NCBI RefSeq assembly: GCF_000155595.1
Contig: NZ_DS989904.1
Location: forward strand, 4,209,987 to 4,273,986
Direction of reading: 5' to 3'
DNA from: Synechococcus sp. PCC 7335
Lineage (GTDB): Bacteria; Cyanobacteriota; Cyanobacteriia; Phormidesmidales; Phormidesmidaceae
DNA length: 64,000 nucleotides
Shown: piece by piece, positions 3,453-38,780 of the stretch
Position numbering within the stretch: position 1 is the stretch's first letter
Layout of the letters: each line of letters begins with the position of its first letter
Notes under the pieces: model-generated
The model's database searches: none
What the model saw: only the letters and a program-made list of their open reading frames with translations
What the model was told of the DNA's origin: nothing
Made by a program: the position numbers and the translations under genes

Positions 3453-6400
3453 CTATGGAGGGCAATTTGTTGTCTCATCAGAGAAGACTAGCGTTGTTCC
3501 ATCTGGCATCTTTGCACAGCGCAATCCCTCGACATAGGGATCGTCTATAGGTAGCTCCCGATAGTGCTCACTTCGAGGTCTTTCAATAGTGACAAAACGC
3601 TGAGCAATTGGGCCTGCTGGTGCGTACTGCAGCGCTACATCGTAACCCCATGAGCGCTCCGGAGGACCATAATATGGAATGATATCCCTGGTGCTATTGC
3701 TATATTCACCGGGTTCCCACGCGCTGATGCTAAAAGGCGCTGTTGAAGCTGTACTGAAATTTAGCTGTAGAAAGGCGCCCTGTATAAATAGATTTGTATT
3801 CCAATCTTGTATGAAACGAGGAAAGTTATGCAATCCTCCGTAGCTCTGCCCCTCTCTAGAAGGGACAAGCCCAGAGATCATGGTTGCGTTGACTCTATGG
3901 GGAGTGTTTTCGTCAATCAGCATGCTGTTGAGTCCTGATGCGTTTTTGCGTATCACGAAGTCGTTGTTGTCAGTAGCTTCTTCAATTAGATTATCGGCTG
4001 TCCTAGACTCTCCATTTCTGCCAACCCAGACAGGCGCACCAGTGTCATGAGGCGTATTAGAATCCTCTCTAACCCAGCCATCTGCTCCGGCCCACTTATC
4101 TCTGTTGTTGCTTCGTAGCGGGCGCTGCTGATTATGAAAAGACGTTCTGGAGTTGTTGAAATTTGAAGATCTCTCGTCCCGGTCGTTGATGAAGCCTTCT
4201 TCTATTGAGCCATCGACAAAGCTATCGGACAAGATTGTCACCGCATCTGCAAGAACCTCTGCTACTCGCCAGCGATCTATGCTAGCGACTGCAAACTTGT
4301 CTAGATTACGTCCAGCAACTGTTCGCCCGTCATAAAAATCGACTCTGGAGTTAGGGACAAAAAGGGTCTGCGTAAACTCTTCGATAGAATCGTCACCATC
4401 TGTAGAATGCGGATTGAAGTTACCCTTGATATAGGCTGCATTATCCGTAACAAAAGACACTCCCTTTTTACGCTTTTTGTTGTCGCTGATATCTCCTTTA
4501 TTATTGTTTAGATCTGCATTCAACCGAAAGCCATAGGGACGCCGATCAGGATCGGTAGCATAGTTAATTGGTTTGATGCTGATGCCGACATCGCTGCCAT
4601 CGTCTCGCTTAGTCAACGGCGGATCGGTTGGCGTAGCGCTGCTGACATCCATCCTACAGCTAGCAGACATCGAGTTCCTGGTAAAATTTGCGATGTTAGA
4701 TAGTTCATCACAATCTTCCCAGTTGCCTGCGGCTGGCCGCACGATAGAATCCTCGCGAGCTGCATCTTCGCGGGCTGCATAGATAATTCCGCTATAAGAA
4801 TCTTCACCATCCGAGACCCAATAGTCAGAACCATCAGGATTCGTCGCTTGCGTGAGGCGACCCAAATCAATATCTAATACTCGAACGGTCATCTCTTCTC
4901 GACCGTTGTACATACCTTTCTCAAGTAGTGATACGTCAACTAAGGTGCCGTCGGTGTCGACGATCTGCATTGTCTCAGGATTTACCCCTCCGCCTGATGA
5001 TGTGCCGGTATCGTTGCGAGGAAGCTTCCAAGAGTTTGCAGACCGATGGTCGAATGCGATCGCACTCATCCCTTGTTCACTTGATTCTTCTAATCCGTCT
5101 AAATCATCATCTCCAACTACGCGATAGGTTACTTCCCGGTTAACCCCTGTATCATTTCCTGGGCTATTATCGTCCCTGTCATCAAATATGTATGTAGATG
5201 CTATATATTCTTCTGCAGCGGGTTGGTCATCGTTTTGATCGTGATTTTCTATTGGAAATAGATAGTGAAGCGCAGGATATTTGGGAGTTGTAGCACAAAC
5301 CAAAGCAACGCCAGCCTTTTCGTCGTTGAGCCCGTTTCCTCTGCCGCTAAACAAAGAAGCAATACTGCCAGCCGCATTATCAGGATGGCAATCATCGGGG
5401 AAATTAAAGGTGTAATTATCGTTTCCTATTGAGACTTCAAACGACGAGAATGACGTTGATGATGGTGAACCTTGAAATCCATAAGTACGGTCTCTATCTA
5501 TCTGGGTAAAGCTTGAAAGGTTCTCAATGAATTCTATTGCACCTGGACTTAGTGCTGCCCTAGCAATAATTTCTTCTGGGCTCAGGTTTGCACCTGTACA
5601 GTCATAATTGTTTTTATTACCACCGCCGCCGCCACCGCCGTTGCCGTTACCGCCGCCACCATTGTTGCCGTTACCGTTACCGCCGCCACCATTGTTGCCA
5701 TTACCACCGCCACCGTTGTTGCCATTACCGCGACCGTTACCGTTACCATTGCCGTTGCCATTGCCGCGACCGTTACCGTTGCCATTACCGCGACCGCTAT
5801 TGGACACGCTATTAGCGAAGACACCAGAGATCGGTTTGCAGTATTTTTCCGCAAAGGAACCTGATCCAGGGCCAGAATTGGTGATGCCGAAAGCGTTCCA
5901 AACAGGTTTTCCTACTTTTGTCATGACCTGCCCCTGATTGGAAATTCCAGAGAAAGTTCCAGCGTTGACAGTAGCATCCCAATCCAGTTGATTTAGGCTC
6001 GTAAGACTATTAGCTAGTAAGCCCATCGTACAAGCAGCAGAATGCAAAGAAGACTTGTCTGCAGGGCTTAGCGCATCATATCTATCAGACATCGCTGATA
6101 GTGAGCTTTTCCAGTTCGTTTTATTATCTAAAAAGTCGGTAAATATACGGCGTAGCATCGAGTAGTCACCCCACATGGCCATCTGCGGAAAAGGGTGAAC
6201 AGTACTGTCCTGTACAGGTGGAAATGAAGGAGAACCACCCTTAGGATCGCCTGCGAGATACGCTAGATTACGTAGAGCTATTCCTAGTGGCTTGTTGTCT
6301 GCTAGTGCAGCACCAAAAGAATCGTTCGTTCCCCCGCTGGCTCTAAATTGCAATGGAAAGTCGTATTCCCAGCCATTTGTTCCTTTACCGATCAAGAAGT

Positions 6401-8390
6401 TACTAATAAAAGAAACGTCGTTATTACTGGAATCTTTGAATGTTACTTCTTGAAAGTCTCGGCTGTTTTGAAGGGTTTCAAAGGTGCCTGGGTGAGAGGT
6501 TGCTGCATAGCAAGCTAACGGATAACTTCCACTATCACTCTCATAGTGATAGACCACCATGCCTTGCACCGCAGCTAAATTGTCTCGCAACGTTCGTCTC
6601 TGGCGCTGTAGGTTAGAAATAGTTGTACTATTCGGCGGATACAACGGATCGCTATTACTCTGCCAGCCATAGTGATTACCTAGCTCCAGTCGCTGCCCTA
6701 CCACCAAACGCAGTCCATGTACTCCAGCTTGCCTTTCCCAATAGCCATCTAGTCCAGATGTTTCGTCGATCAGATTTTCACCGTTCGGATCACTCGCTAG
6801 AATCGTTTCACCCAGCTTCTTGTCATAGCTTGGACTGGTGCGAGTTGTTGTAATAGTGCCATCGTCAGTGTCGTTTACCCAATTCACATCGGAATAAGAA
6901 GGACGAGGACCATAGCGATTATCAGCACGATAGAAATCATCTAGGTATGGAGGATTTTGATTTTCGTTAGTAATTCGTCCTCTTGTAAAGAATTTTCGCC
7001 TTTCCCAGTCTGGATCTCTCGTCCATGTATCGGTATTACGATGCTCAGAAACATTCCTTGTGAATAGCGCTAACGGGTTTAGTGCAATGTTCAAAGGAGA
7101 CACATTCCTCCCTGCGTCTACAGAGTCTGTATTTACTGTTAAATTCGCATCCTCACCCCTAGTCAAGGGAGAGTTGCCAACGCCATCGTAGATATGAATT
7201 CTTGGGTTGTTTCTCCTACGGATTCTGTTTGAAGTTGAATTTCCAACAATGAGCTGCCCTTCAAAGTCTCCCGAAGTTGGCTCGACAATACCATCCCCGT
7301 CGTTATCTACTTCTGCCAAAGTAATAGCAGAGGCATCTTGGGTGTACAGGCATGAATTGTGAGAACTGACCATGTGCAACCGGGCTCTGCCATCAACCAT
7401 CAGATTGCCGTCGGTATGCATGGCCCCATTGAGGTTAAATTCGGGACCTGGGAATATCTCTAGATCGTATTTAAACCAAGCTCCCCATCGATTCCCTTTA
7501 CTGGCTCGTCGCACCTGCTGTAGCTCCAAAGCACTGTTCGCCCGGCCAAGGTCCTTTCCATTACTCACATAGGCAGTAACCTGAAAGTTTTTCTCCAGCA
7601 ATGCTGAACTAACTTGATACCATCCTTGATTCGCAACCCTTGAACCACCGCAAGTTTCTGGGGCTTGTTCAGCATTGAGCGGGCCATTACGAGTGACTAG
7701 AGCATTTGCCTTGGCCGGGCTCAACACGTCTTCGATTTTGATATCGTCTTCGCGATCATTAGGAGTACTATTTACGTCGACAGCATCGTCCATCAAAATG
7801 GAATAGGCTACAATCTCGTTTTGGTCTTCAATGCCATCACCGTTGAGGTCAAAGGTAAACATCCAGGCGTTATCAACAGTATCGTCCCCGTTGATGTCAA
7901 TTCTTTCTTCTCCAGGCAATTCGTAAGGATCATCGACAAGTGCGGTGACGCCTAAAGACGAATCAGTTACGTTTGCCATCAGTGCGACTAACAGATCGCT
8001 AGAGGGCGTTGAAGAACTAGGAAAGCGCGTATCCCGGCCAAACAGATATTCTAGTTTTGCTTTTGCCCGATCAATCGCAGGGGTAGCAACATTATCGATG
8101 ACCTGCTGCTCTCGCGTTAAGTACGCTGATTGTGTGCGGCTAGCCGTTCGATAGCTGAGTGCTCCTACCGTTAGTGTCATTATCAGCAGCAACAGCACTG
8201 TCGTCGGGAGTACAAACCCAGCGCGGCTATAGCGAGCAGACTTGTTGAAAAGAAAGAGACTTCTCAAGAATCCGCTCATAAATCGACGAGAAAGCCGCTG
8301 AAAGTCTGAGCTGTGCAGAGGGCGAGTTCTATTTCGAGTCTGCTTCTTGGCGGACATGTCAGGCTTCCTAACTGATGGGGAGATGCACAA
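3453..8390 (-). CDS. hpsA: Hormogonium polysaccharide biosynthesis protein HpsA (giant pseudopilin-like surface protein)
   Basis: A 1645-residue protein heading the hps cluster. A basic N-terminus leads to Gly58 followed by FVLPTTVLLLLIMTL, a prepilin/PilX-like hydrophobic helix, so it is probably handled by the type IV pilus pathway and exposed outside the cell. Asp-rich loops that look like calcium sites occur near residues 167 (DINGDDTVD), 180 (DLNGDGIED), 360 (DNDGDGIVE) and 1097 (DDDLDGLEE). Residues about 860-926 are a low-complexity tract of Gly, Asn and a few Arg. Two cysteines lie in the last 15 residues. In Nostoc, hpsA heads a locus needed for hormogonium polysaccharide and gliding; here no glycosyltransferases follow within the window. 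An alternative start is the in-frame ATG at 8357 (MSAKK), 11 codons in. Confidence 0.8.
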   Translation of the reverse strand: MCISPSVRKPDMSAKKQTRNRTRPLHSSDFQRLSRRFMSGFLRSLFLFNKSARYSRAGFVLPTTVLLLLIMTLTVGALSYRTASRTQSAYLTREQQVIDNVATPAIDRAKAKLEYLFGRDTRFPSSSTPSSDLLVALMANVTDSSLGVTALVDDPYELPGEERIDINGDDTVDNAWMFTFDLNGDGIEDQNEIVAYSILMDDAVDVNSTPNDREDDIKIEDVLSPAKANALVTRNGPLNAEQAPETCGGSRVANQGWYQVSSALLEKNFQVTAYVSNGKDLGRANSALELQQVRRASKGNRWGAWFKYDLEIFPGPEFNLNGAMHTDGNLMVDGRARLHMVSSHNSCLYTQDASAITLAEVDNDGDGIVEPTSGDFEGQLIVGNSTSNRIRRRNNPRIHIYDGVGNSPLTRGEDANLTVNTDSVDAGRNVSPLNIALNPLALFTRNVSEHRNTDTWTRDPDWERRKFFTRGRITNENQNPPYLDDFYRADNRYGPRPSYSDVNWVNDTDDGTITTTRTSPSYDKKLGETILASDPNGENLIDETSGLDGYWERQAGVHGLRLVVGQRLELGNHYGWQSNSDPLYPPNSTTISNLQRQRRTLRDNLAAVQGMVVYHYESDSGSYPLACYAATSHPGTFETLQNSRDFQEVTFKDSSNNDVSFISNFLIGKGTNGWEYDFPLQFRASGGTNDSFGAALADNKPLGIALRNLAYLAGDPKGGSPSFPPVQDSTVHPFPQMAMWGDYSMLRRIFTDFLDNKTNWKSSLSAMSDRYDALSPADKSSLHSAACTMGLLANSLTSLNQLDWDATVNAGTFSGISNQGQVMTKVGKPVWNAFGITNSGPGSGSFAEKYCKPISGVFANSVSNSGRGNGNGNGRGNGNGNGNGNGRGNGNNGGGGNGNNGGGGNGNGNNGGGGNGNGGGGGGGNKNNYDCTGANLSPEEIIARAALSPGAIEFIENLSSFTQIDRDRTYGFQGSPSSTSFSSFEVSIGNDNYTFNFPDDCHPDNAAGSIASLFSGRGNGLNDEKAGVALVCATTPKYPALHYLFPIENHDQNDDQPAAEEYIASTYIFDDRDDNSPGNDTGVNREVTYRVVGDDDLDGLEESSEQGMSAIAFDHRSANSWKLPRNDTGTSSGGGVNPETMQIVDTDGTLVDVSLLEKGMYNGREEMTVRVLDIDLGRLTQATNPDGSDYWVSDGEDSYSGIIYAAREDAAREDSIVRPAAGNWEDCDELSNIANFTRNSMSASCRMDVSSATPTDPPLTKRDDGSDVGISIKPINYATDPDRRPYGFRLNADLNNNKGDISDNKKRKKGVSFVTDNAAYIKGNFNPHSTDGDDSIEEFTQTLFVPNSRVDFYDGRTVAGRNLDKFAVASIDRWRVAEVLADAVTILSDSFVDGSIEEGFINDRDERSSNFNNSRTSFHNQQRPLRSNNRDKWAGADGWVREDSNTPHDTGAPVWVGRNGESRTADNLIEEATDNNDFVIRKNASGLNSMLIDENTPHRVNATMISGLVPSREGQSYGGLHNFPRFIQDWNTNLFIQGAFLQLNFSTASTAPFSISAWEPGEYSNSTRDIIPYYGPPERSWGYDVALQYAPAGPIAQRFVTIERPRSEHYRELPIDDPYVEGLRCAKMPDGTTLVFSDETTNCPP
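5610..5810. repeat. Gly/Asn-codon low-complexity repeat inside hpsA
   Basis: An irregular array of ggt-aac/ggc-aac type triplets on the minus strand encodes about 66 residues of Gly and Asn with scattered Arg. On the plus strand it reads as runs of ccg, cca and ttg/tta, which produce spurious open frames on both strands. Such a tract is prone to length change by slippage in multiples of three. Confidence 0.9.
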
Positions 8391-11471: not shown

Positions 11472-14400
11472 ATGGTTCAAGAACTTAAGCGATCGCACAC
11501 AAAAAGTCCTTTCCCAGAAGGCGCACCCGCTGCCTATCCCGTCTTCTATCGCACCTACAGCCGCCGCTCTAGTGATGGCAAACGGGAAACTTGGCAAGAT
11601 GTTTGCGATCGCACGCTAGCCGGACTGGTGGAACTAGGTACCCTCACTGATCAAGAGCGGGATCTTGTCTCTAGAATGCAGCGTGAGCTTAAGGCGATGC
11701 CCTCTGGTCGCTGGCTATGGGTAGGTGGTACGGAGTGGAGCAAAAATCCTCAGAATTTCTCCGGTGCTTACAACTGTACGAGCACCAACGTTGTCGACTG
11801 GCGTGCGTTTGGCCTGATGATGGATTTGGCAATGATGGGCTGCGGCACGGGAGCCGTCCTAGAGCCAAAGTACATTAATCAGCTGCCGCTTATTCGAAAC
11901 AAGATTAAGGTGACGATGCGGGGTGATATCGGCACGACAGTCGCTAGTCAGCGCCGAGAAGAGGCTGAAATTAAGGTAGATGAAGCCAATAGTCGCGTTG
12001 AGATTATTGCAGGCGACAGCCGGCAAGGTTGGGTGAAGTCTTACCAAACCCTGCTGGAGCTATCGACTGATGAGCGCTTTGACGGAGAAGTAGAGGCGAT
12101 CATCGATCTCAGTGATATTCGCCCAGCGGGGGAGAGGCTAGAGGGTTTTGGCGGAATGGCTAATCCGGTGAAGCTACCGGAATTGTATGAGCGCTGTGCC
12201 AAAATTCTGAATAATGCGCTAGGTCGTCAGCTCAATTCTATTGAGTGCTGTCTGCTGATTGATGAAGCAGCAGCTTGTGTTGTAGCTGGCAATATTAGGC
12301 GTTGCCTGCCGGAGGATGCGCTTGTCCATACGGCAAGGGGACTCGTACCGATTAAGGATGTTCAAATTGGCGAGCAAGTTCAGACGCCGCTAGGCTACCG
12401 CAAGGTCGTGAACAAGTTCGATCAGGGGCAGCAGAATGTTCACGAGATCGAGACAAATGGGCCTGTGCCAAGGGCAACGTTGAACCACCAGATAGCTGTT
12501 TTTGGTGATGCGAAGGGTCAAGTTAAGTGGAAGCGGCTATCTGAGCTAAGTGAGGGTGATCGCCTCATGCACAGTAATCAGATACTCACTGGAACATCGA
12601 CTTCCCTACCGGCTGATACAACGACTCAACGACCGGAGCAAAGCCGCACCGCTAAGGATATTCGTATTCCTAAGCTGACTGCTGCCGTAGCATGGCTAAT
12701 TGGCTTTACGCACGGTGACGGATACGTTGCATTGGGACGAAACAAGCATAGTAAGCCCTATGGTCGCGTGGAATGGGCTATGAACGCGCGTGACAATGAC
12801 CAGAGATTGCTTTCGCAGCTACGGTCTAAAATCGAAGCTGGGCTAGCCGAGTTTGGACTAACTGCGGCTCATGGCAGCGTTCGAGGCGAAAATACCGCCA
12901 AGTCAGTTTGTTCTAGCATTCGCTTGGCCGAGTACTTTCATACGCATATCAAGCAGCCTAACCGACCACTTGAGGTCCCTAACTATATTTTGCAAGGCTC
13001 TATAGATGTACGAGCCTCATACTTAGCTGGACTAATGGATAGCGATGGCGCGGCGAACAGCCGTCCTCCCCATTTGGTGACTAGCGTTTACCGCAATTTT
13101 GTTCGTCAGGTAGCAGCTGTTCTTTCTAGTTTGGGAATTGCAGGGCGTCTTTCGACAACCGTCCCGACCAATACAAACTGGCAAGTCAAGTACAACCTCA
13201 AGCTACCGGCGCTAAAGGGGCAATACAATGCATTGATTGCACCACATTCTGCAAAAGGCCCTGTCCGTGTAGGGCTTAAGACATACGGCTTCACTTTAAG
13301 CGGTGCGATGATGCGCGAAGCCTATTCCTATAGCGAAATGCGAGACACGGGATTTCAAGGTAGCTACAGCGTTGGCTCTAACTATGAGCGCTATGTTGCC
13401 GAAGCCGATCTCGACTTAGATATCCCGGTGACTGTCAGCGGGTTAGGCAGCTACGACCATGTACAGACCTATGATATAGAAGTTGAAGAAGCCCATTGCT
13501 TCTATTGTGACGGCTACCTTACTCATAACAGTGCGGGTATGCGTCAGTTCGACAGCAACGATGACGTTGCGACGGGTGCGAAAGAGAATCTTTGGCGACA
13601 AGATGCGGATGGGAACTGGAGCATCGACCCGACTAAAGACGCGCTGCGGATGGCGAACCACACTCGCGTGTTTCATGAAAAGCCATCACCTCAAGAAATT
13701 GAAACGGCGGTACGGAAGCAGTTTTATTCTGGAGAGGGAGCGATTCAGTGGGCAGGAGAGGCTGAAAGGCGAGCGCAAGGCAAGGGACGCTACGGTCTGA
13801 ATCCTTGTGGAGAAATTTTAGGTCAAGATTTTCACTGCAACTTAGCTGAGATTCATCTTAACCAGATTAGTCCGAATGATGAACAGGCTCAAAATGATGC
13901 GTTTAGAGCAGGTGGAATTGCGGTTGCGGCGCTGCTAAATCACAGGTTTGTAGAAGAGCGCTATCAGAAATCACGCGAAGAAGATCCGATCGTAGGCGTT
14001 TCATTCACAGGCTTCTTCGACTTCTGCGTGAAGGCGTTCGGCGTAGAGTGGCTAGAGTGGTTCGCTGCAGGTCGCCCGGACACTATGCAGGGAGTGGAAT
14101 TTAAGGAGAAAGAGAAAGCGTATTTGAGCCGTTGGAAGCAGATAGTGCATGAGACGGTTTGGGAGTATTGTGATCGCCACCACATCCGCCGCCCTAATCG
14201 CTGCACCACTGTTCAACCCGCCGGCACAAAGAGCCTGCTTACGGGTGCATCCTCTGGCTGGCATCCGCCAAAAGCGCAGCGCTTTATTCGCCGAATCACC
14301 TTCCGCAAAGACGATCCGGTGGCGCTAGCCTGCATGGACTATGGCTATTCAGTCATTCCATCTCAGTCTGACAAAGATGAGAAGGGCAATCTACTAGACG

Positions 14401-14882
14401 ATCCTTTTGATCCACGCTGTACCGAGTGGCTAGTGGAGCTACCTGTAGAAGTCGGCTGGGCCAATCTACCGGGCGCTGATGAAGTATCGATTGAACAGTT
14501 TTCTGCACTGGCACAGTTTGATTTCTACATGCAGGTGCAAAAACACTACACGGCGCACAATACATCTGCCACGATTGAGCTCCGTGAGAACGAGGTTGAA
14601 CCTCTAGCGCAGCGAATCACTGAAGCAATTCAAAACGACGAAGGCTATGTATCGGCGGCGTTGCTAGCCAGGTTTGATGATTTGCAAACGTTCCCTCGAC
14701 TGCCGTTTGAGCCCATCAGCAAAGAGCGGTACGAAGAGATGCTGTTGGAAGTGCGATCGCGTCGCCAGACCGAAGACTTTCACGCCGCTTTAGAAAGGCA
14801 TGACGCGGGTGAACTGGTTGAGGCCGGTCCTGCAGGCTGTGATTCTGACAAATGCCTAATGCCAGAAAAGAAACCTAGCTAG
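11472..14882 (+). CDS. nrdJ: Adenosylcobalamin-dependent ribonucleoside-triphosphate reductase (class II), intein-containing
   Basis: The class II enzyme reduces ribonucleoside triphosphates to deoxy forms using adenosylcobalamin as radical source. The 1136-residue frame is 727 residues of reductase plus a 409-residue intein (residues 278-686). Visible reductase landmarks are YNCTSTNVVDW (first active-site cysteine), CGTGAVLEP, NPCGEILGQDFHCNL (thiyl-radical Cys, Glu and second Cys), VQPAGTKSLLTG, and a C-terminal redox pair in GCDSDKCLMPEKK. Spliced length agrees with monomeric Lactobacillus-type reductases. The host protein is split at GNIRR/SAGMRQFD, a conserved stretch near the active site. 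The gene is monocistronic, preceded by a hairpin leader and followed by a 12-bp perfect stem. Its need for B12 agrees with cbiD and cobN in the same window. Confidence 0.95.
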   Translation: MVQELKRSHTKSPFPEGAPAAYPVFYRTYSRRSSDGKRETWQDVCDRTLAGLVELGTLTDQERDLVSRMQRELKAMPSGRWLWVGGTEWSKNPQNFSGAYNCTSTNVVDWRAFGLMMDLAMMGCGTGAVLEPKYINQLPLIRNKIKVTMRGDIGTTVASQRREEAEIKVDEANSRVEIIAGDSRQGWVKSYQTLLELSTDERFDGEVEAIIDLSDIRPAGERLEGFGGMANPVKLPELYERCAKILNNALGRQLNSIECCLLIDEAAACVVAGNIRRCLPEDALVHTARGLVPIKDVQIGEQVQTPLGYRKVVNKFDQGQQNVHEIETNGPVPRATLNHQIAVFGDAKGQVKWKRLSELSEGDRLMHSNQILTGTSTSLPADTTTQRPEQSRTAKDIRIPKLTAAVAWLIGFTHGDGYVALGRNKHSKPYGRVEWAMNARDNDQRLLSQLRSKIEAGLAEFGLTAAHGSVRGENTAKSVCSSIRLAEYFHTHIKQPNRPLEVPNYILQGSIDVRASYLAGLMDSDGAANSRPPHLVTSVYRNFVRQVAAVLSSLGIAGRLSTTVPTNTNWQVKYNLKLPALKGQYNALIAPHSAKGPVRVGLKTYGFTLSGAMMREAYSYSEMRDTGFQGSYSVGSNYERYVAEADLDLDIPVTVSGLGSYDHVQTYDIEVEEAHCFYCDGYLTHNSAGMRQFDSNDDVATGAKENLWRQDADGNWSIDPTKDALRMANHTRVFHEKPSPQEIETAVRKQFYSGEGAIQWAGEAERRAQGKGRYGLNPCGEILGQDFHCNLAEIHLNQISPNDEQAQNDAFRAGGIAVAALLNHRFVEERYQKSREEDPIVGVSFTGFFDFCVKAFGVEWLEWFAAGRPDTMQGVEFKEKEKAYLSRWKQIVHETVWEYCDRHHIRRPNRCTTVQPAGTKSLLTGASSGWHPPKAQRFIRRITFRKDDPVALACMDYGYSVIPSQSDKDEKGNLLDDPFDPRCTEWLVELPVEVGWANLPGADEVSIEQFSALAQFDFYMQVQKHYTAHNTSATIELRENEVEPLAQRITEAIQNDEGYVSAALLARFDDLQTFPRLPFEPISKERYEEMLLEVRSRRQTEDFHAALERHDAGELVEAGPAGCDSDKCLMPEKKPS
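12303..13529 (+). other. Intein with LAGLIDADG homing endonuclease domain inside nrdJ
   Basis: This in-frame insertion of 409 codons begins with Cys (CLPEDALVHT, splicing block A) and ends with THN before Ser (blocks F/G: YDIEVEEAHCFYCDGYLTHN). Block B carries the T-x-x-H motif as ATLNHQ (about residue 337 of the precursor). Two dodecapeptide motifs, WLIGFTHGDGY (about residue 408) and YLAGLMDSDG (about 518), mark a LAGLIDADG endonuclease, each keeping an acidic residue. The penultimate His, terminal Asn and the +1 Ser needed for splicing are all present, so it should be splicing-competent. The endonuclease looks intact as well. Confidence 0.93.
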
Positions 14883-31219: not shown

Positions 31220-34027
31220 CTACACAGCAGTGGATGTCAGCTGTCTAGTTTTTTTGATTAGCTGTTTAGGATCGATCGGTTTATCTAAAGTGTCGTGATG
31301 AGCGATGTGCGAAGACTGAGATGCTGATTGACTCAGCAGAGCTAATACTCTAGTGCCTGCGGCCATAATCGATTGTTCTATCTCTTTAATCTTGGCTTGT
31401 TGATGGCTGAAGAGCGACAGATCAGCAATTAGCAGTGCAGGTTTCAAAAGTGCTATTTGAGTCGCGATACCGTCAACGGGCGTTAGCCAAATCACTTCAT
31501 AGCCATCTGCTGTTAATAGCTCGCAGATAATAACAGCGCTGTTTTCTTCAGTCTCTAGCAAAAGTACGACTGGCTTGGTAATTCGATCTAGAGTAGAAGG
31601 CACATGGTAGCGACTATCCGAGGTTGGCTGTGACTGTATTGGCAAGCTCACTATAAAAGTAGATCCTTTGCCAACCGTCGATATCACCTGAATGGTGCCA
31701 TTGTGCAGTTCAACCAAGTGCTTGGTCATCGCTAATCCTAGTCCTGTTCCTGCATACTGGCGCTGGAAGGGAGATTCTAGCTGCTTAAACTTCTCAAACA
31801 TGAACTTTTGTTGTGACTCAGGAATCCCAATGCCCGTATCTTCTACCTGAAGCAGAATACTATCTAACTCTTTTTGTACCCGCAGAGTTATCTCTCCGCC
31901 AGCAGGCGTGAACTTAATGGCGTTGTTAACTAAGTTGGAAAGGATCTGCTCTATTCGCTTGGAATCAGCACGAAAGTTTTCAACCTCAGGACTGAGAACA
32001 CAGTCGACACTCAAAGACACATCATGATTTTTCGCATCCTCTTGATATCGAGTAGCCACTGAGCGCACTAGATTAGATAGAGGGAAGTTGCTGACGTTAA
32101 GTAGCGATCGCCCCGACTCTACCTTGGCAAATTCCAAGATATCGTTGATAACCGTTAGGAGGTGCTCACCGCTGCGATTGATTGTCTCTAGATAGCTACG
32201 CTGACGTTCGCTCAGCTCCCCAAAGGACCATCGTAATAACGTTGCTGACATACCGATGATATAGGTCAAAGGAGTACGGAGCTCGTGGCTCATGGTCGAG
32301 AGAAACTCTACTTTAGTGCGATCAGCGGCGGTAGCGGCAGATAATGCATCCCGCAAGCTCTGGGTACGCTCTATGACACAGCTTTCTAAACTTACTTTTT
32401 GCTGTTGTAGCTGTTCATATAAAGAGGCTTGCTCGATTGCAACTGCTAGGTGCTCAGCAATATGCTGCAAAAAGACAGTTTCTGTTTCTTGCCAGTGGCG
32501 ATAGTCTCTACACTGATGGACAATCAGCAGTCCCCATAGCTGCTCTTTAACAAGAATGGGGACAATAATCTTGGACTTAACGTGCGCCTGATGCAAGAAA
32601 TCGAGTAAACAGCTTTCGTTTGCATACTTTTCATCCACATTATCGACAGCAATAGGCTGACCCGCCAAATAGCGTAAATAGTTAGGTGGAGTAGAGTAAA
32701 AGCAGCTTTCTTCGGCAAAATTTAAGACAGAAGAGATTTCTTCTGAGCGCCTAGACTCGTAGGTTACTTGTCCCATGTGCGACTGCTGGCCAATAACATC
32801 GTCGCTAGTTTGACCACTACCTACCTGGTTAGTAGGCTCCGAACGCTGAGAAGCATATTCGTCTGTGGATTTGATCAGGCGACTAGCTAGAGGGTTTAGG
32901 CTGTCCAATTCAGCCAGTCTTGGGATGGTCTTAGCTATAGGCTGATGACTAGATCTAGGTTGTACGGCGGCTTTAGAGTCATCTGTAGAATTGAACTGGT
33001 AGAGCACTAACCTATCGGCAGACAAAAACTCACGAACCTGAGCTACCGTCGTTTCTAGAATGGACGATAAATCTAGACTGTGGCGAATGTGATTGATTAC
33101 CTGATTGAGCAGCAAACTTTGCTCAATCTCATTTTTGAGGGTAGTGGGTCGTTCTGTTTGACGATCACCTTCTGGTGAAGTCGCAAGATCCTTTGCCCAT
33201 GATAGGAAAAAGGTTTCTTGCAATGGACGTTTGGAGTTTTTCTCTTCGAGAAGATGAGAATTGTCCGTATGTTGGAAGCTGATTTTATGTTGAGCGGTTT
33301 TATGTTGAACGGTTTGAGACTGAGCAATTTTAGCTGTGGAGCCAGGCTGTAGTTTCGTCATAAGTTCCTCAATTATGGTGCTGTCGAGGGTGAGATTGAC
33401 AAGGTATCGGTTAGCCTTTGGCGAGCTATCTTTTGCAGTATGAAAGTTCGAATTATGAAGTTTGGCTGCGGGTTCTAACTGTTCGCTTTCGGCCTTAGGG
33501 TTTGAAAAAGACGCTTGAAACAACAGGGTATGATCATCATACGGAGCATGGTGAATATTAGACTGCCGTTGCGACAAGGGTAGTGAATTTAACGAAGCGT
33601 GATAAGCATCATTTGGAAGATGAGCTTGCTCTATAGCGGCATTAGATACACTACTAGAGGCGTTGCCATCTGCTAGGTGATGAATAGAGGCATTTGCGTC
33701 ACTATTATTATTTGGGGCTGAAGAAACCAGCGGCGTAGCAGTTAGCAGCACGTTTAGAGTCGGCGATCGCATCAGAACAAAGTCTGTACGTTGAAGATCA
33801 GCGACAAAACTACTGTTGTCTGTCTTGCCTGCCTGCGCTTGACCTGACCGCGAAGCCTGCTCATGTGAATTGACGACAATATGCTTAGCAACCTGGGTCG
33901 GTGTCACCGACTCAGGCGTTGTCACCGACTCAAAGAAATGTCCTTGGTTAATCAAAGATTCTCTCAGGCGCAGATAGGCCCTGACAGAAAACTTCTGATT
34001 AGCAATGGAAGAGTAGGGAGTTTGCAT
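31220..34027 (-). CDS. GAF domain histidine kinase with C-terminal receiver-like domain (CikA-like)
   Basis: A 935-residue soluble sensor kinase. Residues 1 to about 290 are Ser/His/Gln/Asn-rich with no recognised fold and contain short internal duplications. A GAF domain spans about 310-520 (SADRLVLYQF ... KSKIIVPILVKEQLWGLLIVH), interrupted by about 90 polar residues. The kinase core has FLSTMSHELRTPLTYIIGMS (His near 580), NNAIKFTPAGG, DTGIGIP and GTGLGLAMTK. The C-terminal 115 residues are receiver-like: the Asp (LLIADLSL) and Lys (LDKP) positions are kept, but the acidic pair is Glu-Thr. GAF-kinase-pseudoreceiver order and the H-box context resemble circadian input kinase CikA. The identity is probable, not proven. 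No chromophore Cys is obvious. Confidence 0.7.
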   Translation of the reverse strand: MQTPYSSIANQKFSVRAYLRLRESLINQGHFFESVTTPESVTPTQVAKHIVVNSHEQASRSGQAQAGKTDNSSFVADLQRTDFVLMRSPTLNVLLTATPLVSSAPNNNSDANASIHHLADGNASSSVSNAAIEQAHLPNDAYHASLNSLPLSQRQSNIHHAPYDDHTLLFQASFSNPKAESEQLEPAAKLHNSNFHTAKDSSPKANRYLVNLTLDSTIIEELMTKLQPGSTAKIAQSQTVQHKTAQHKISFQHTDNSHLLEEKNSKRPLQETFFLSWAKDLATSPEGDRQTERPTTLKNEIEQSLLLNQVINHIRHSLDLSSILETTVAQVREFLSADRLVLYQFNSTDDSKAAVQPRSSHQPIAKTIPRLAELDSLNPLASRLIKSTDEYASQRSEPTNQVGSGQTSDDVIGQQSHMGQVTYESRRSEEISSVLNFAEESCFYSTPPNYLRYLAGQPIAVDNVDEKYANESCLLDFLHQAHVKSKIIVPILVKEQLWGLLIVHQCRDYRHWQETETVFLQHIAEHLAVAIEQASLYEQLQQQKVSLESCVIERTQSLRDALSAATAADRTKVEFLSTMSHELRTPLTYIIGMSATLLRWSFGELSERQRSYLETINRSGEHLLTVINDILEFAKVESGRSLLNVSNFPLSNLVRSVATRYQEDAKNHDVSLSVDCVLSPEVENFRADSKRIEQILSNLVNNAIKFTPAGGEITLRVQKELDSILLQVEDTGIGIPESQQKFMFEKFKQLESPFQRQYAGTGLGLAMTKHLVELHNGTIQVISTVGKGSTFIVSLPIQSQPTSDSRYHVPSTLDRITKPVVLLLETEENSAVIICELLTADGYEVIWLTPVDGIATQIALLKPALLIADLSLFSHQQAKIKEIEQSIMAAGTRVLALLSQSASQSSHIAHHDTLDKPIDPKQLIKKTRQLTSTAV
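33283..33312. repeat. 15-bp in-frame duplication in the kinase N-terminus
   Basis: Copies 33283-33297 and 33298-33312 differ at one base and encode a repeated five-residue unit (KTAQH-type). A looser 18-bp duplication at 33900-33935 encodes ESVTTP/ESVTPT. Confidence 0.75.
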
Positions 34028-34589
34028 TACTTAAGGAGCAACCAGAGAGCATGTGCAAAACGAAATAAGCACAATGTAAAGATGGGAGGAAGCGGTATCA
34101 AGACTGTGATCGAACCGAGACCAATAGAGAACCGCAGACTGATAGCTATAAGAGGTGAGCCTCAAAAGAACTGGAATTTATCGTCAGCTTAGTATATGGA
34201 CGCAAATAGCCGGACAGTCGCCAGTAGACAGGAGTACTGCTGTGCAGTCAAAAGCCTTTTGATCGATAAAATCTTTTCCTAACAGCATTCAAATGTTGTA
34301 TGCAAGTATGAAGCGTGTTCTGAAGTACGAAAAAAGTTTTGCTTTATATTCCTAAAATAAAAAAGATTAAAGTACAAAAGCCAACCAAAATGAAGTGATA
34401 AAGATGGTGTTTGAGTAGACCTATTCAACAGTTTAGCTGTAGACGCCTGTTAGCTAGAGACTTTTATTAGTTTGAATTTTTATTAGTTTGAACTTTTATT
34501 AGAGCCTTAGCTTGGTACTTGCCAGAAGAATAACGCGAGTTTATCTATAATCTGTGTTATTTCCTAGTTCTTTAACATTTCAGATTTCT
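34028..34589. other. Divergent intergenic region between the GAF kinase and cobN
   Basis: This 562-bp AT-rich gap should carry promoters for both genes. It contains a 16-bp tandem repeat (34461-34506). No B12 box, tRNA or convincing small gene was found; a 103-codon frame overlapping the kinase start has no coding features. Confidence 0.5.
34461..34506. repeat. 16-bp tandem repeat, about 2.7 copies (cttttattagtttgaa)
   Basis: Units start at 34461, 34477 and 34493; the last is partial. They lie roughly 85-130 bp before the chosen cobN start. Confidence 0.85.
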
Positions 34590-37500
34590 ATGCATCGATT
34601 AGCAGCTACGCCAGGCGGTTGGGACAACACAAAAGAGGGTGTCATTTATATTGAACAGGCACCTGCCCCAATTGTTTTATTGACAGCAGCTGACACAGAT
34701 ATTTCTACATTAAATCAGGTTCTAGATAGGCTGCCTAAAGGATTTGAAGAAATTCGTGCACTCAACTTACTTCAGCTTCAGCAGCAGCTTACTATCGATA
34801 CTTATGCAGAGACGGTCCTAAGACACGCACGTGTGATCATTGTCAGAATTTTAGGCGGACGTTCCTATTGGTCGTATGGCTTAGAAGTACTAAAAGAAAC
34901 AGTATCCCTTACAGGCGCTAGCCTGATTGTGATGCCAGGGGATGATAAGCCAGATCTAGATTTGATGAGTCATTCTACAGTTGCCTTATCGGTTGTCAAC
35001 CGCTTGTGGCAGTACTTTACTGAAGGTGGTATCGACAACCTATGCTATGGGTTAATGTACGCTAGCGATTGCACCCTATCAACTAACTACAACCCTTCCT
35101 CTCCCCAAGCAGTAGCTAAGGTAGGTATATATACCCCTACTATCGTCCAAGAGACCAAAAAAAAGACCGATACAAAGGGATACAAAAAGTCAGATCTATA
35201 TACAGACATACAAGTAAAGTTAAAGTCTCTAAACTCTTTACAATCATCGCAAAAAACAACTTCTAAATTAACTTTTGAGAACATCTCTAACTTGTTTCAA
35301 AGCATCTCTAATTTGACAGATGAAAGTAGCTTCTCGTCACTGAGCGATACAAAGTTATTTAATAAAAGTGAGGATTTTTCACCCTTTAAAAGCAATGATC
35401 GAATTCTCTTACCTTCACTAGAAGCGGATTCAAGAAAATCTAAACTAACTGCCTTGGTTGGAGTTATTTTCTACAGGGCCCACTATCTATCAGGGGATAC
35501 TAAAACGATCGACATGATCGCCGCTGCGCTTGCCAAGCGTAACCTAGTCCCTGTTCCTATCTATGTCTCCTCACTCAAAGAATTGGAGGTTCAACAGGCG
35601 ATCCTTCGCTGTTGTCAATCCAAAGATGGACATCAGTCAATCGATTTAGTCTTGAACACAACTAGCTTTGCAATCACCAGCTTCCAACAAACTAGCTTTG
35701 CAAGTGCTGCTTTAAAGCCGTCCACCTCAAGCACATCATCATTGAGCGTACCCTCCCTCTGGCAGCAGCTAGATATTCCGGTTCTTCAGGTAATTTGTAG
35801 TGGTAGCTCGCATGACTATTGGCAGAGCCACACTCAAGGGCTTACGCCTCGAGATATTGCGATGAATGTGGCCCTGCCGGAGGTAGATGGACGGGTAATT
35901 ACCCGAGCAGTTTCCTTCAAAGGAGCTGAGCAAGAAGAGAGACCAGAAGGATGCAAAGCACTTAGAAACCAGTTGCAGACGGATGTGGTCGCTTATCAAG
36001 CAAAGCATGATCGCATTGATTTTGTTGCAGACTTAGCGCTCAAATGGGTTCAGCTACGCCGCGTGCCGGTTCAAGATCGCAAAGTTGCACTGATATTGGC
36101 CAACTATCCTAACCGAGATGGACGGATGGCGAACGGAGTAGGGCTAGATACGCCCGCGAGCTGTCTAGAAATATTGCGATCGCTTCAGCAAGCAGGCTAT
36201 ACCGTCACCGATCTGCCCAAAACGGGAGACGACCTGATGGCCAGGTTGGCAGCAGGTGTTACGAATGACCCAGAAGGATTTGGATTAGTACCGATTGACC
36301 AGTCACTCTCATTAGAGAGCTATCAGAGTTTTTTTCAGACCTTATCTTCAGCGGTGCAAGCGGGCATCACTAGCCGATGGGGCGAGCCTCGCATAGAGTG
36401 GCAGCGCTTCAATCACGCTCAAGTAGAAGAAATCGACTGTTTGCCGATTTCAGGTATTCAGTTTGGCAATATTTTTGTTGGCATCCAGCCTAGTCGAGGC
36501 TATGACATTGATCCAACGCTGAACTATCATGCGCCAGACTTAGCGCCTACTCATGCCTATCTAGGGTTTTATCACTGGCTACGGGCTCACTTTAGTGCGC
36601 AGGCGATAGTGCATGTCGGCAAACATGGCAATTTAGAATGGCTACCCGGTAAGGGAATCGCCCTTTCATCCGATTGCTATCCAGAAGCGGCCTTCGGACC
36701 CGTACCCCATTTCTATCCCTTCATCGTGAATGACCCTGGAGAAGGCGCCCAGGCAAAACGACGAGCTAGCGCTGTGATTTTAGATCATCTAACGCCGCCA
36801 ATGACACGCGCTGAGCTATATGGCCCCTTACAGCAATTAGAAAGTTTGGTCGACGAATATTACGAAGCTCAAAACCTAGACCCGACTCGGTTAAAGATCA
36901 TCGGTCCCAAGATTGTCGATCTGCTGCTCGATACTCAGCTTCAGCAAGATCTGAAGTTGTCTATGATCCAAACATCAGAGCCGCCAATAGATAGTCAACC
37001 CTTAGATCAATCACCTGATTTACAGACATGGCTACCCCAAATTGATGGCTATCTTTGTGAACTTAAAGAGGCTCAGATTCGTGATGGGCTACATATCTTG
37101 GGCCAATGCCCAACCGGCAATCAGCTTCGAGATTTGATTGTGGCGATCGCCCGCCATCCAAACGCAGAACACTTAGGACTTAGTCGGGCGATCGCCCAAA
37201 GCTGGGGCCTTGATCTCGATCCGCTAACTGAGGATCTTGGCACTGCCCACCATTCAACCCTGCCTCAGACTAGAAGCTGCCGTACCATCGGCGATGTGGT
37301 TGAACAGATAGAAATCTACGCAGCTGATCTAGTCGGTCAGCTGCTCGACTCTGATCGTAGTTTTTCTGATTTTGCTCCGCCGCTCAAAGCTAGCCTCTGC
37401 TGGATTGCAGATACTCTACTCCCCAACCTTCGCCAAACTACCCAAGAACTCACCCATCTGCTTCATGGACTTGAAGGCGGCTATGTTCCCAGTGGACCTG

Positions 37501-38780
37501 CTGGGGCACCCACGCGCAATCGACCAGAGGTTTTGCCGACCGGTCGTAATTTCTATTCAGTAGATATTCGTGCTATCCCAACCGAGAGCGCTTGGGATGT
37601 CGGTCGTAAAGCAGCTGAGATCCTCGTCGAAAACTATACTCAAGAACAGGGCGAATATCCTCGCACACTAGGCCTTTCGATGTGGGGTACCGCCGCGATG
37701 AGAACAGGGGGCGACGATATAGCAGAAGCGCTGGCTTTATTAGGTGTTCGGCCTGTATGGGATGGCCCTAGTCGGCGCGTAGTAGACTTTGAAATTCTGC
37801 CGTTGGCCTCGCTAGGTCGGCCTAGAGTTGACGTGACGCTACGGATTTCTGGTTTTTTTCGAGATGCGTTTCCCAACTTAATCTCTTTATTTGATCAAGC
37901 CGTGATTGCTGTCTCGAAGCTCGATGAATCGGCTGAGCAAAATCCGCTAGCGGCCCAAGCTAAAAAAGAGTATGAGCAGTGGCAAGCCAAGGGACTTGAT
38001 CACGCTCAAAGTCTAGAGCGATCGCGCTATCGGATCTTTGGCTCAAAACCCGGTGCTTACGGCGCTGGCCTTCAAGGTCTAATTGAAGCGCAAAACTGGG
38101 AAAGTGACGCCGATCTAGCCCGCGCTTATATCAATTGGAGTGGCTATGCCTACACAGGCAATGCCGACGGACACAGCGCTCTAGAAGCGTTTAGTCAGCG
38201 CCTAGAGAATATGCAAATCGTGCTGCAAAATCAGGACAACCGAGAGCATGATCTGCTCGATTCGGATGACTACTATCAATTCCAAGGCGGGCTGACAGCG
38301 GCGGTGAAAGCAAAGCGAGGAGAATCGCCACTCACTTATTTTGGCGATAATGCGGTACCAGAGAACCCGAAGGTGCGCTCACTTCAGTCAGAAATTGCCC
38401 GCGTGTATCGCTCTCGGGTGATCAATCCAAAGTGGATTAAAGGTGTCATGCGCCACGGCTACAAAGGTGCGTTTGAGCTAGCGGCTACTGTCGATTATCT
38501 ATTTGCCTACGACGCCACCACAGGCTGCGTATCCGATCACATGTACAAAGGCGTTGCCGAAGCGTATGTGCTCGATTTGGCAGTGGGTGACTTTGTTAGG
38601 AAATCTAATCCTTGGGCGCTGCGAGATATGGCAGAACGATTATTAGAGGCCAGTCAGCGAGGGCTATGGAAAGGAGCCGATGAGAAAATGGTGGACGAGT
38701 TGCGAGCGATCGCCCATACAGCTGAGGGCACAATTGAAGCCGGGCTATCTACTACGGCTCAGCGTTCGAATCCCAGCTAA
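34590..38780 (+). CDS. cobN: Cobaltochelatase subunit CobN
   Basis: CobN is the large subunit of the ATP-dependent cobalt chelatase, homologous to ChlH/BchH. I choose the ATG at 34590 because CobN proteins commonly begin MHRLAATPGGW; an upstream GTG at 34554 would add 12 residues. The protein is about 1396 residues. Landmarks include GVIFYRAHYLSGDTK, LILANYPNRDGRMANGVGLD, AIVHVGKHGNLEWLPGKG, PGEGAQAKRRASAVILDH and GYKGAFELAATVDYLFAYDA. Around residues 183-283 there is an insertion rich in Lys, Ser, Asn and Thr in AT-rich DNA, between two conserved blocks. It fits with cbiD and nrdJ. Its last 29 bp overlap the convergent YdcF gene. CobS/CobT partners are not in the window. Confidence 0.93.
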   Translation: MHRLAATPGGWDNTKEGVIYIEQAPAPIVLLTAADTDISTLNQVLDRLPKGFEEIRALNLLQLQQQLTIDTYAETVLRHARVIIVRILGGRSYWSYGLEVLKETVSLTGASLIVMPGDDKPDLDLMSHSTVALSVVNRLWQYFTEGGIDNLCYGLMYASDCTLSTNYNPSSPQAVAKVGIYTPTIVQETKKKTDTKGYKKSDLYTDIQVKLKSLNSLQSSQKTTSKLTFENISNLFQSISNLTDESSFSSLSDTKLFNKSEDFSPFKSNDRILLPSLEADSRKSKLTALVGVIFYRAHYLSGDTKTIDMIAAALAKRNLVPVPIYVSSLKELEVQQAILRCCQSKDGHQSIDLVLNTTSFAITSFQQTSFASAALKPSTSSTSSLSVPSLWQQLDIPVLQVICSGSSHDYWQSHTQGLTPRDIAMNVALPEVDGRVITRAVSFKGAEQEERPEGCKALRNQLQTDVVAYQAKHDRIDFVADLALKWVQLRRVPVQDRKVALILANYPNRDGRMANGVGLDTPASCLEILRSLQQAGYTVTDLPKTGDDLMARLAAGVTNDPEGFGLVPIDQSLSLESYQSFFQTLSSAVQAGITSRWGEPRIEWQRFNHAQVEEIDCLPISGIQFGNIFVGIQPSRGYDIDPTLNYHAPDLAPTHAYLGFYHWLRAHFSAQAIVHVGKHGNLEWLPGKGIALSSDCYPEAAFGPVPHFYPFIVNDPGEGAQAKRRASAVILDHLTPPMTRAELYGPLQQLESLVDEYYEAQNLDPTRLKIIGPKIVDLLLDTQLQQDLKLSMIQTSEPPIDSQPLDQSPDLQTWLPQIDGYLCELKEAQIRDGLHILGQCPTGNQLRDLIVAIARHPNAEHLGLSRAIAQSWGLDLDPLTEDLGTAHHSTLPQTRSCRTIGDVVEQIEIYAADLVGQLLDSDRSFSDFAPPLKASLCWIADTLLPNLRQTTQELTHLLHGLEGGYVPSGPAGAPTRNRPEVLPTGRNFYSVDIRAIPTESAWDVGRKAAEILVENYTQEQGEYPRTLGLSMWGTAAMRTGGDDIAEALALLGVRPVWDGPSRRVVDFEILPLASLGRPRVDVTLRISGFFRDAFPNLISLFDQAVIAVSKLDESAEQNPLAAQAKKEYEQWQAKGLDHAQSLERSRYRIFGSKPGAYGAGLQGLIEAQNWESDADLARAYINWSGYAYTGNADGHSALEAFSQRLENMQIVLQNQDNREHDLLDSDDYYQFQGGLTAAVKAKRGESPLTYFGDNAVPENPKVRSLQSEIARVYRSRVINPKWIKGVMRHGYKGAFELAATVDYLFAYDATTGCVSDHMYKGVAEAYVLDLAVGDFVRKSNPWALRDMAERLLEASQRGLWKGADEKMVDELRAIAHTAEGTIEAGLSTTAQRSNPS

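Follow-up and report, generated by a model that had tools for sequence, protein, structure and literature searches.

A full-length LAGLIDADG intein in the ribonucleotide reductase of Synechococcus sp. PCC 7335 that probably moved recently, after a lineage split

The ribonucleotide reductase (RNR) gene nrdJ in the window, the 64,000-nucleotide stretch of Synechococcus sp. PCC 7335 analysed here, carries a large in-frame insert, and the question raised by this locus is whether the insert is an intein that still moves or a resident that is kept only because its splicing is needed. The open reading frame at 11472-14882 on the + strand encodes a precursor of 1136 aa, while the extein without the intein has 727 aa. 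The features of the gene are as follows:

11472..12302, + strand: N-extein of the monomeric class II RNR (RTPR), residues 1-277, with C-terminal GNIRR
12303..13529, + strand: intein of 409 aa, precursor residues 278-686
12303..12305, + strand: Cys1, C in 83/83 type I sequences (family defined below)
12477..12488, + strand: block B TLNH, with T59 and H62 (intein residues 59-62)
12696..12722, + strand: LAGLIDADG motif 1, LIGFTHGDG (from residue 132), with D139 at 12717-12719
13023..13049, + strand: LAGLIDADG motif 2, LAGLMDSDG (from residue 241), with D248 at 13044-13046
13470..13529, + strand: blocks F-G, YDIEVEEAHCFYCDGYLTHN, with penultimate His408 and Asn409
13530..13532, + strand: +1 Ser, the second nucleophile and C-extein residue 1 (SAGMRQ)
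13530..14882, + strand: C-extein, 450 residues and stop, containing NPCGE
13803..13808, + strand: second intein site NP^C (Pro778/Cys779), uninterrupted here and interrupted in several relatives

From family knowledge, we take Cys1 to be the first splicing nucleophile and D139 and D248 to be the catalytic Asp residues of the LAGLIDADG motifs; NPCGE in the C-extein is presumably the RNR active-site motif. The initial annotation had placed the intein at 12303-13529, which proved exact to the base, and had described intact splice residues and two intact LAGLIDADG motifs; C1, T59, H62, H408, N409 and Ser+1 are indeed all present, and D139 and D248 are both kept. The insert has the signature of a class 1 cis-splicing intein (C1, TLNH, C-terminal HN and +1 Ser) and that of a homing endonuclease (HEN), with both dodecapeptide motifs and their catalytic acids. 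Pfam LAGLIDADG_3 and Hom_end (PF14528, PF05204) scored above their cut-offs in the intein, which is the sole LAGLIDADG_3 match of the whole genome, and TIGR01443 intein_Cterm scored just above its cut-off (15.8 vs 15.6 bits); Pfam Intein_splicing (PF14890) stayed below (19.8 vs 35.8 bits). The composition of the intein was not foreign, with a GC of 0.508 compared to 0.521 in the extein.

A model of the intein was predicted from an alignment of 57 homologues (pLDDT 83.6, pTM 0.84) and compared with the PDB by Foldseek and VIA-align. The best match was TliVMA (7qss; Z 28.0, rmsd 4.0, 326 aligned), and the next full-length inteins were PI-PfuI (1dq3, Z 23.1) and PI-SceI (1vde, Z 21.5). The splicing domain matched gp41-1 (6riz; Z 19.1, rmsd 1.7, 122 aligned) and the RecA and DnaB inteins, and the HEN part resembled I-DmoI. 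The predicted fold is that of a full-length intein, a HINT domain with an inserted LAGLIDADG nuclease.

The host had been called a class II RNR in the initial annotation, and this was borne out: TIGR02505 scored 729.8 bits against a cut-off of 340, the class II insertion domain PF21995 was above its cut-off, NPCGE is present, and the nearest solved relative by sequence is the Lactobacillus leichmannii RTPR 1l1l, in whose numbering the alignment puts the insertion point between residues 319 and 320. An AlphaFold model of the precursor (mean pLDDT 53.9) was too poor for placing the site relative to the active site. The RTPR gene is single-copy in the 5.97 Mb genome, and PF02867, PF00268 and PF13597 found no other RNR type in that genome (completeness 95.25%); PF02867 is also silent on this RTPR, so that its absence informs on other RNR types only. 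With one RTPR copy and no other RNR detected at this completeness, the gene content makes it plausible that dNTP supply depends on splicing.

Two other genes of the window were noted. A CobN/magnesium-chelatase protein of 1408 aa is encoded at 34554-38780, 20 kb downstream of the RNR; cobalamin is required by RTPR-type RNRs, and the 5′ part of this gene falls where the window has its lowest GC (34001-36000, 0.416). At 3453-8390 on the - strand, an ORF of 1645 aa has no Pfam match at 1e-5, and 801 of its residues are matched at 68% in the contig of cf. Phormidesmis sp. LEGE 11477 (best segment only).

To see how the intein is distributed, 388 genomes of the class, including its own, were searched (matches at E up to 0.001), and 68 of them matched. 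Fifty carry type I, the family homologous to the window intein (55-100% identity), and 13 carry type II, a second intein family of 394 aa that is 35-39% identical to the window intein; the other five matches (G074, G105, G103, G239 and G026) are weak or partial and were assigned to neither family, and G105 leaves frame after the intein site. The insertion site GN[IV]RR^S was read in all 63 type I and type II genomes, and since homologues occupy the same site across cyanobacteria, the window insert is not a chance feature. The order search gave matches in 58 of its 63 genomes, a few of them stopping short of the site, and at least 11 of the 58 have an intein there (9 type I, 2 type II). A named collection yielded 66 intein loci, among them loci of Leptolyngbya, Pseudanabaena, Nostoc, Anabaena, Calothrix, Fischerella and Microcoleus, two short end fragments (L184, L185) and one locus whose frame breaks inside the intein (L180). 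By far the nearest collection intein is that of cf. Phormidesmis sp. LEGE 11477 (L175), at 90%.

The class search, the order search, the scan of the named collection (L184, L185 and L180 left out) and one viral record gave, after deduplication, 83 distinct type I sequences. C1, T59, H62, penultimate H408 and N409 are identical in all 83, whereas type II inteins end in Ser-Asn instead of His-Asn in 13/13 (L101-L111, L006 and L031), a non-standard penultimate residue. All 83 are 404-426 aa long, most commonly 407 aa (68/83), which means that the nuclease domain is missing from none of them; the queries were full-length, and cyanobacterial mini-inteins may escape such a search. A catalytic Asp is lost in eight of the 83 (D139 in five, D248 in three; one of the eight is viral), and these eight copies keep every splicing residue.

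The initial annotation had also pointed to intein-free alleles in sister strains as informative, and such alleles exist: three of the six other congeneric genomes have an empty site (G053, G054, G056) and three have the intein (G052, G055, G057). Altogether 32 empty alleles were read, 29 as GNIRR/SAGMRQ and three as GNIRR/SAGIRQ. It is extremely improbable that the insert is a lineage-specific RNR domain and not a spliced element, as the low Intein_splicing score might suggest, because sister alleles lack it cleanly at GNIRR/SAGMRQ, the predicted fold is HINT plus LAGLIDADG and the splice residues are retained in 83/83. We also regard as very unlikely a host-serving switch in which signal-dependent splicing gates dNTP supply. 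The lack of any other detected RNR fits such a switch, as do Cys1 and C399 (83/83 type I sequences) and C402 (82/83), which could allow redox control; however, presence is patchy, with half of the other congeners lacking the intein, and the conserved cysteines have other explanations.

The RNR genes of some relatives show further peculiarities. Seven of them (L040 at 1473-1937, from the congeneric G053; L035 from G039; L123, L060, L106, L010 and L063) are broken in two within the loop that precedes the active-site motif, with a stop, a short gap, a new ATG and then YGLNPCG. What follows YGLNPCG in these seven, an immediate in-frame stop and a shared FCLT reading, opens an intron-like element; the L107 gene ends at the same place, with NPCG absent from the next 1300 bases, and L128, L132 and L138 have the intron-like element without a gene split. 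In L040 the element spans 338 bases (1600-1937), and, whole or in part, it was found in 25 of the 388 class genomes, the PCC 7335 genome not being one of the 25. The label "group I" comes from a pairing, CGUGUGGU/GCCUCACG, that was read by hand and resembles a group I P1; the element found no match in Rfam at gathering scores, and relaxing the limit to an E of 1 brought up SAM_alpha alone, far below its cut-off. Split RNR genes have been noted in Nostoc (PMC5987646). Beside GCGATCGC, at about extein residue 494, the RNR frame changes in two genera (L039 near 1730-1760, G061; L041 near 1780, G030), which may reflect a shared sequencing error, a real mutation or a programmed shift; the contig of G006 (L042) ends near that point.

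Whether the window copy has moved was addressed by its divergence from L175. DNA identity within the pair is 88.8% for the intein and 82.3% for the N-extein, and protein identity is 90.7% and 92.8%, respectively. At fourfold sites, 39 of 185 differ in the intein and 165 of 322 in the exteins (Fisher 1.5e-11). When 36 window ORFs were compared with 59 kb of the L175 contig (best segment only), 18 gave tblastn matches, which differ at 1310 of 2710 fourfold sites; 17 of these (68-98% protein identity) each show a fourfold difference of 0.35-0.57, and the 18th has 31% identity. The dS was 0.43 in the intein, 1.29 in the N-extein and 1.88 in 92 C-extein codons by NG86, and 0.30, 0.94 and 1.00, respectively, by YN00; values above 1 are near saturation, so this 3- to 4-fold gap is rough and the fourfold counts are safer.

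In windows of 40 codons, the fourfold difference fell from 0.67 (codons 241-280) to 0.16 (281-320) at the N-side edge of the intein, ranged from 0.00 to 0.33 within it, and rose at the C-side edge from 0.17 (641-680) to 0.50 (681-720), then 0.53-0.64 up to codon 800. Extein windows ranged from 0.21 (codons 161-200, 4/19) to 0.67; N-extein codons 161-200 are thus as low as the intein and the 3′ end drops to 0.31, and with such a spread single windows are noisy. As controls, L120 differs from the window at 0.63 of fourfold sites in the intein and at 0.63 and 0.60 in the exteins, and L121 at 0.68 in the intein and at 0.64 and 0.55 in the exteins. The intein is not slower than the exteins in these comparisons, which makes it unlikely that the dip comes from intein DNA evolving slowly at synonymous sites. 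Among the pairs that include the window, the intein-only dip was seen in one (L175); in the comparisons with L120 and L121, the intein appears as old as the extein.

The step in divergence at the intein edges suggests that the window copy probably moved horizontally after the split from the LEGE 11477 lineage, a reading of sequence divergence in one species pair. Either lineage may have given the intein to the other, or both may have drawn on a common source after the split. Ordinary homologous recombination between two intein-bearing alleles is an unlikely source of the low synonymous divergence: although recombination alone is able to replace a segment, and no empty-to-full event was observed, both changes in divergence sit at the intein ends, where ordinary recombination has no reason to stop.

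We favour, as highly probable, an intein of class 1 that is full-length and would splice in cis, built from a HINT domain and a single-chain LAGLIDADG HEN with two motifs. It sits at GNIRR^S of the only detected RNR of a cyanobacterium whose nearest named relatives place it close to Phormidesmis and Leptolyngbya, would home into empty nrdJ and probably moved after the split from LEGE 11477. Translation would yield the 1136-aa precursor, in which Cys1 would make the N-S shift, Ser+1 would take the branch and Asn409 would cyclise, the 727-aa enzyme being ligated. The endonuclease would cut intein-free nrdJ alleles, and repair would copy the intein in.

Selection on the intein was estimated against L175. 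The dN/dS of the HEN region was 0.117 (NG86) or 0.195 (YN00) and that of the N-terminal splicing part was 0.122 (NG86), values that place both the nuclease and the splicing parts under purifying selection as judged from this comparison; constraint is weaker on the intein than on the extein (0.11 vs 0.03 and 0.002). With this selection on the HEN, the signature of recent movement and the empty congeneric alleles, homing may be active.

Trees and pair counts were made from 125 of 128 rows, L122, L153 and L158 having been left out because of short flanks. The window and L175 are sisters in the intein tree and the extein tree alike, and thus movement is read from synonymous divergence and not from topology. 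Among within-family pairs, which are non-independent, the intein is closer than the extein in 19 of 3238 at p <1e-4, and the reverse was found in one pair, of type II. The strongest cases at the protein level are L096 with L097 and L098, which cross families (intein 93% vs extein 71%), and L160 with Pseudanabaena (84-87% vs 67-68%); L094 with L099 goes the other way (71.3% vs 87.3%).

These comparisons bear on an old, vertically inherited intein whose endonuclease no longer homes and which is kept only because splicing is needed, an explanation that we consider distinctly unlikely. It would account for the correlation of intein and extein identities (r 0.79 over 3160 type I pairs), for the single clade formed by the four congeneric inteins and for the eight copies that lack a catalytic Asp while keeping all splicing residues. 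It does not agree with a synonymous drop against LEGE 11477 that is confined to the intein, with the cross-family discordance of L096, with purifying selection on the HEN or with the extein tree, which requires no fewer than 19 state changes among type I, type II and empty sites (mean 40.6 when the labels are shuffled).

Viral copies were found at the same site. The IMG/VR record G391 (L186, L190; 21.7 kb) encodes members of the major head, tail sheath, tail tube and tape-measure families, and its RNR has a type I intein at GN[IV]RR^S that is 64% identical to the window intein, with D139 changed to Asn. With Nostoc paludosum L132 this viral copy shares 73.2% identity in the intein and 55.0% in the extein; its long branch lies within a group of mostly Nostocales sequences, a placement not strongly supported. 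The phage RNR (L186 1711-6354, 1547 aa) is interrupted a second time at QPAG^S, by an insert that was judged by eye to be an intein, and six of eight other viral relatives have an insert with a similar start (QPSG/CLDRTAL) at that same motif. A search with this RNR found nine viral loci, one being the G391 record itself. At the GN[IV]RR^S site, L229, L230 and L232 have a type II mini-intein of 134 aa without nuclease, L226, L227 and L231 are empty, and L225 and L228 stop short. In L229 and L232, identity to the 13 type II inteins of cyanobacteria is 71-83% over the first 100 residues of the mini-intein and 74-84% over its last 31, compared to 55-61% for the N-exteins and 68-71% for 80 C-extein residues, so that the contrast is weaker on the C side.

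All these viral records are metagenomic, and structural phage genes were found in one of them (G391). The major-head family phrog_37569 occurs in that record only among the nine, and the tail-sheath family phrog_17610 in none of the eight others, which leaves IMG/VR as the basis for calling L225-L232 viral. Six ORFs next to the RNR of L226 were tested: four belong to phage families for a methyltransferase, a ParB-like protein, an exonuclease and SSB, and two to families of unknown function; two L229 ORFs tested against phage families gave no match. Among 72,556 plasmid records no match to the intein was found, and among 50,697 isolate phage records nine matched, none over more than 80% of its length and all below 60% identity, one being the RNR of Thermus phage phiLo (residues 1-89, 37%). 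The RNRs of the isolate cyanophages Cr-LKS4 and PSS2 have an empty site. The viral copies fit a role of viruses as carriers or as recipients of the intein. We lean slightly towards a wider view in which GN[IV]RR^S would be an intein niche of cyanobacteria and their viruses. Two distant intein families would compete for it, homing would carry them across species and families, and viral RNR genes would serve as a passage where mini-inteins lacking the HEN, or copies with a dead nuclease, are retained; the window copy would then be one recent jump.

Cyanobacterial nrdJ inteins are already in print, so the window intein is known in kind; the analysis adds the empty congeneric alleles, the synonymous step at the intein edges, the second family at the same site and the viral copies to the evidence on mobility. 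The openly licensed literature, as far as its contents were accessible and among the matches listed, held no paper on a GN[IV]RR^S site shared with viruses. The element itself is ordinary for a cyanobacterial RNR, and its value is that of a clean natural case: one site with two families, empty congeneric alleles, a recent jump and viral copies makes cross-species intein transfer testable.

The closest known counterpart is in the same enzyme type. The RIR1/NrdJ intein of Anabaena sp. PCC 7120 (Gleason and Olszewski 2002) reportedly consists of 407 aa in a precursor of 1172 aa and is said to splice in E. coli to active enzyme. By this reported size it would be the same intein, 407 aa being the commonest type I length, and the Trichormus member L127 has a 1172-aa precursor with a 407-aa intein; the window copy differs in having 409 aa, belongs to another cyanobacterial family and is about 70% identical to Nostocaceae members, and its likeness to the PCC 7120 type is one of size. 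PI-SceI, PI-PfuI and TliVMA likewise have a HINT domain with an inserted two-motif LAGLIDADG nuclease, but they are 11-20% identical to the window intein and reside in other host proteins. In Thermosynechococcus, the nrdJ inteins are likewise full-length, HEN-bearing and patchy between strains, and their origin is called unclear there (PMC9403480). Two intein-interrupted nrdJ genes of uncultured, presumed phages are described from Global Ocean Sampling data in another paper, which calls inteins in phage RNRs rare (PMC3653736), and our viral copies resemble these as nrdJ inteins of presumed phages. Finally, intein/extein discordance between mycobacteriophage and Streptomyces TdS inteins (PMC5050341) is the same phage-bacterium discordance in another gene and other hosts, compared to the RTPR, cyanobacteria and viral contigs of this study.
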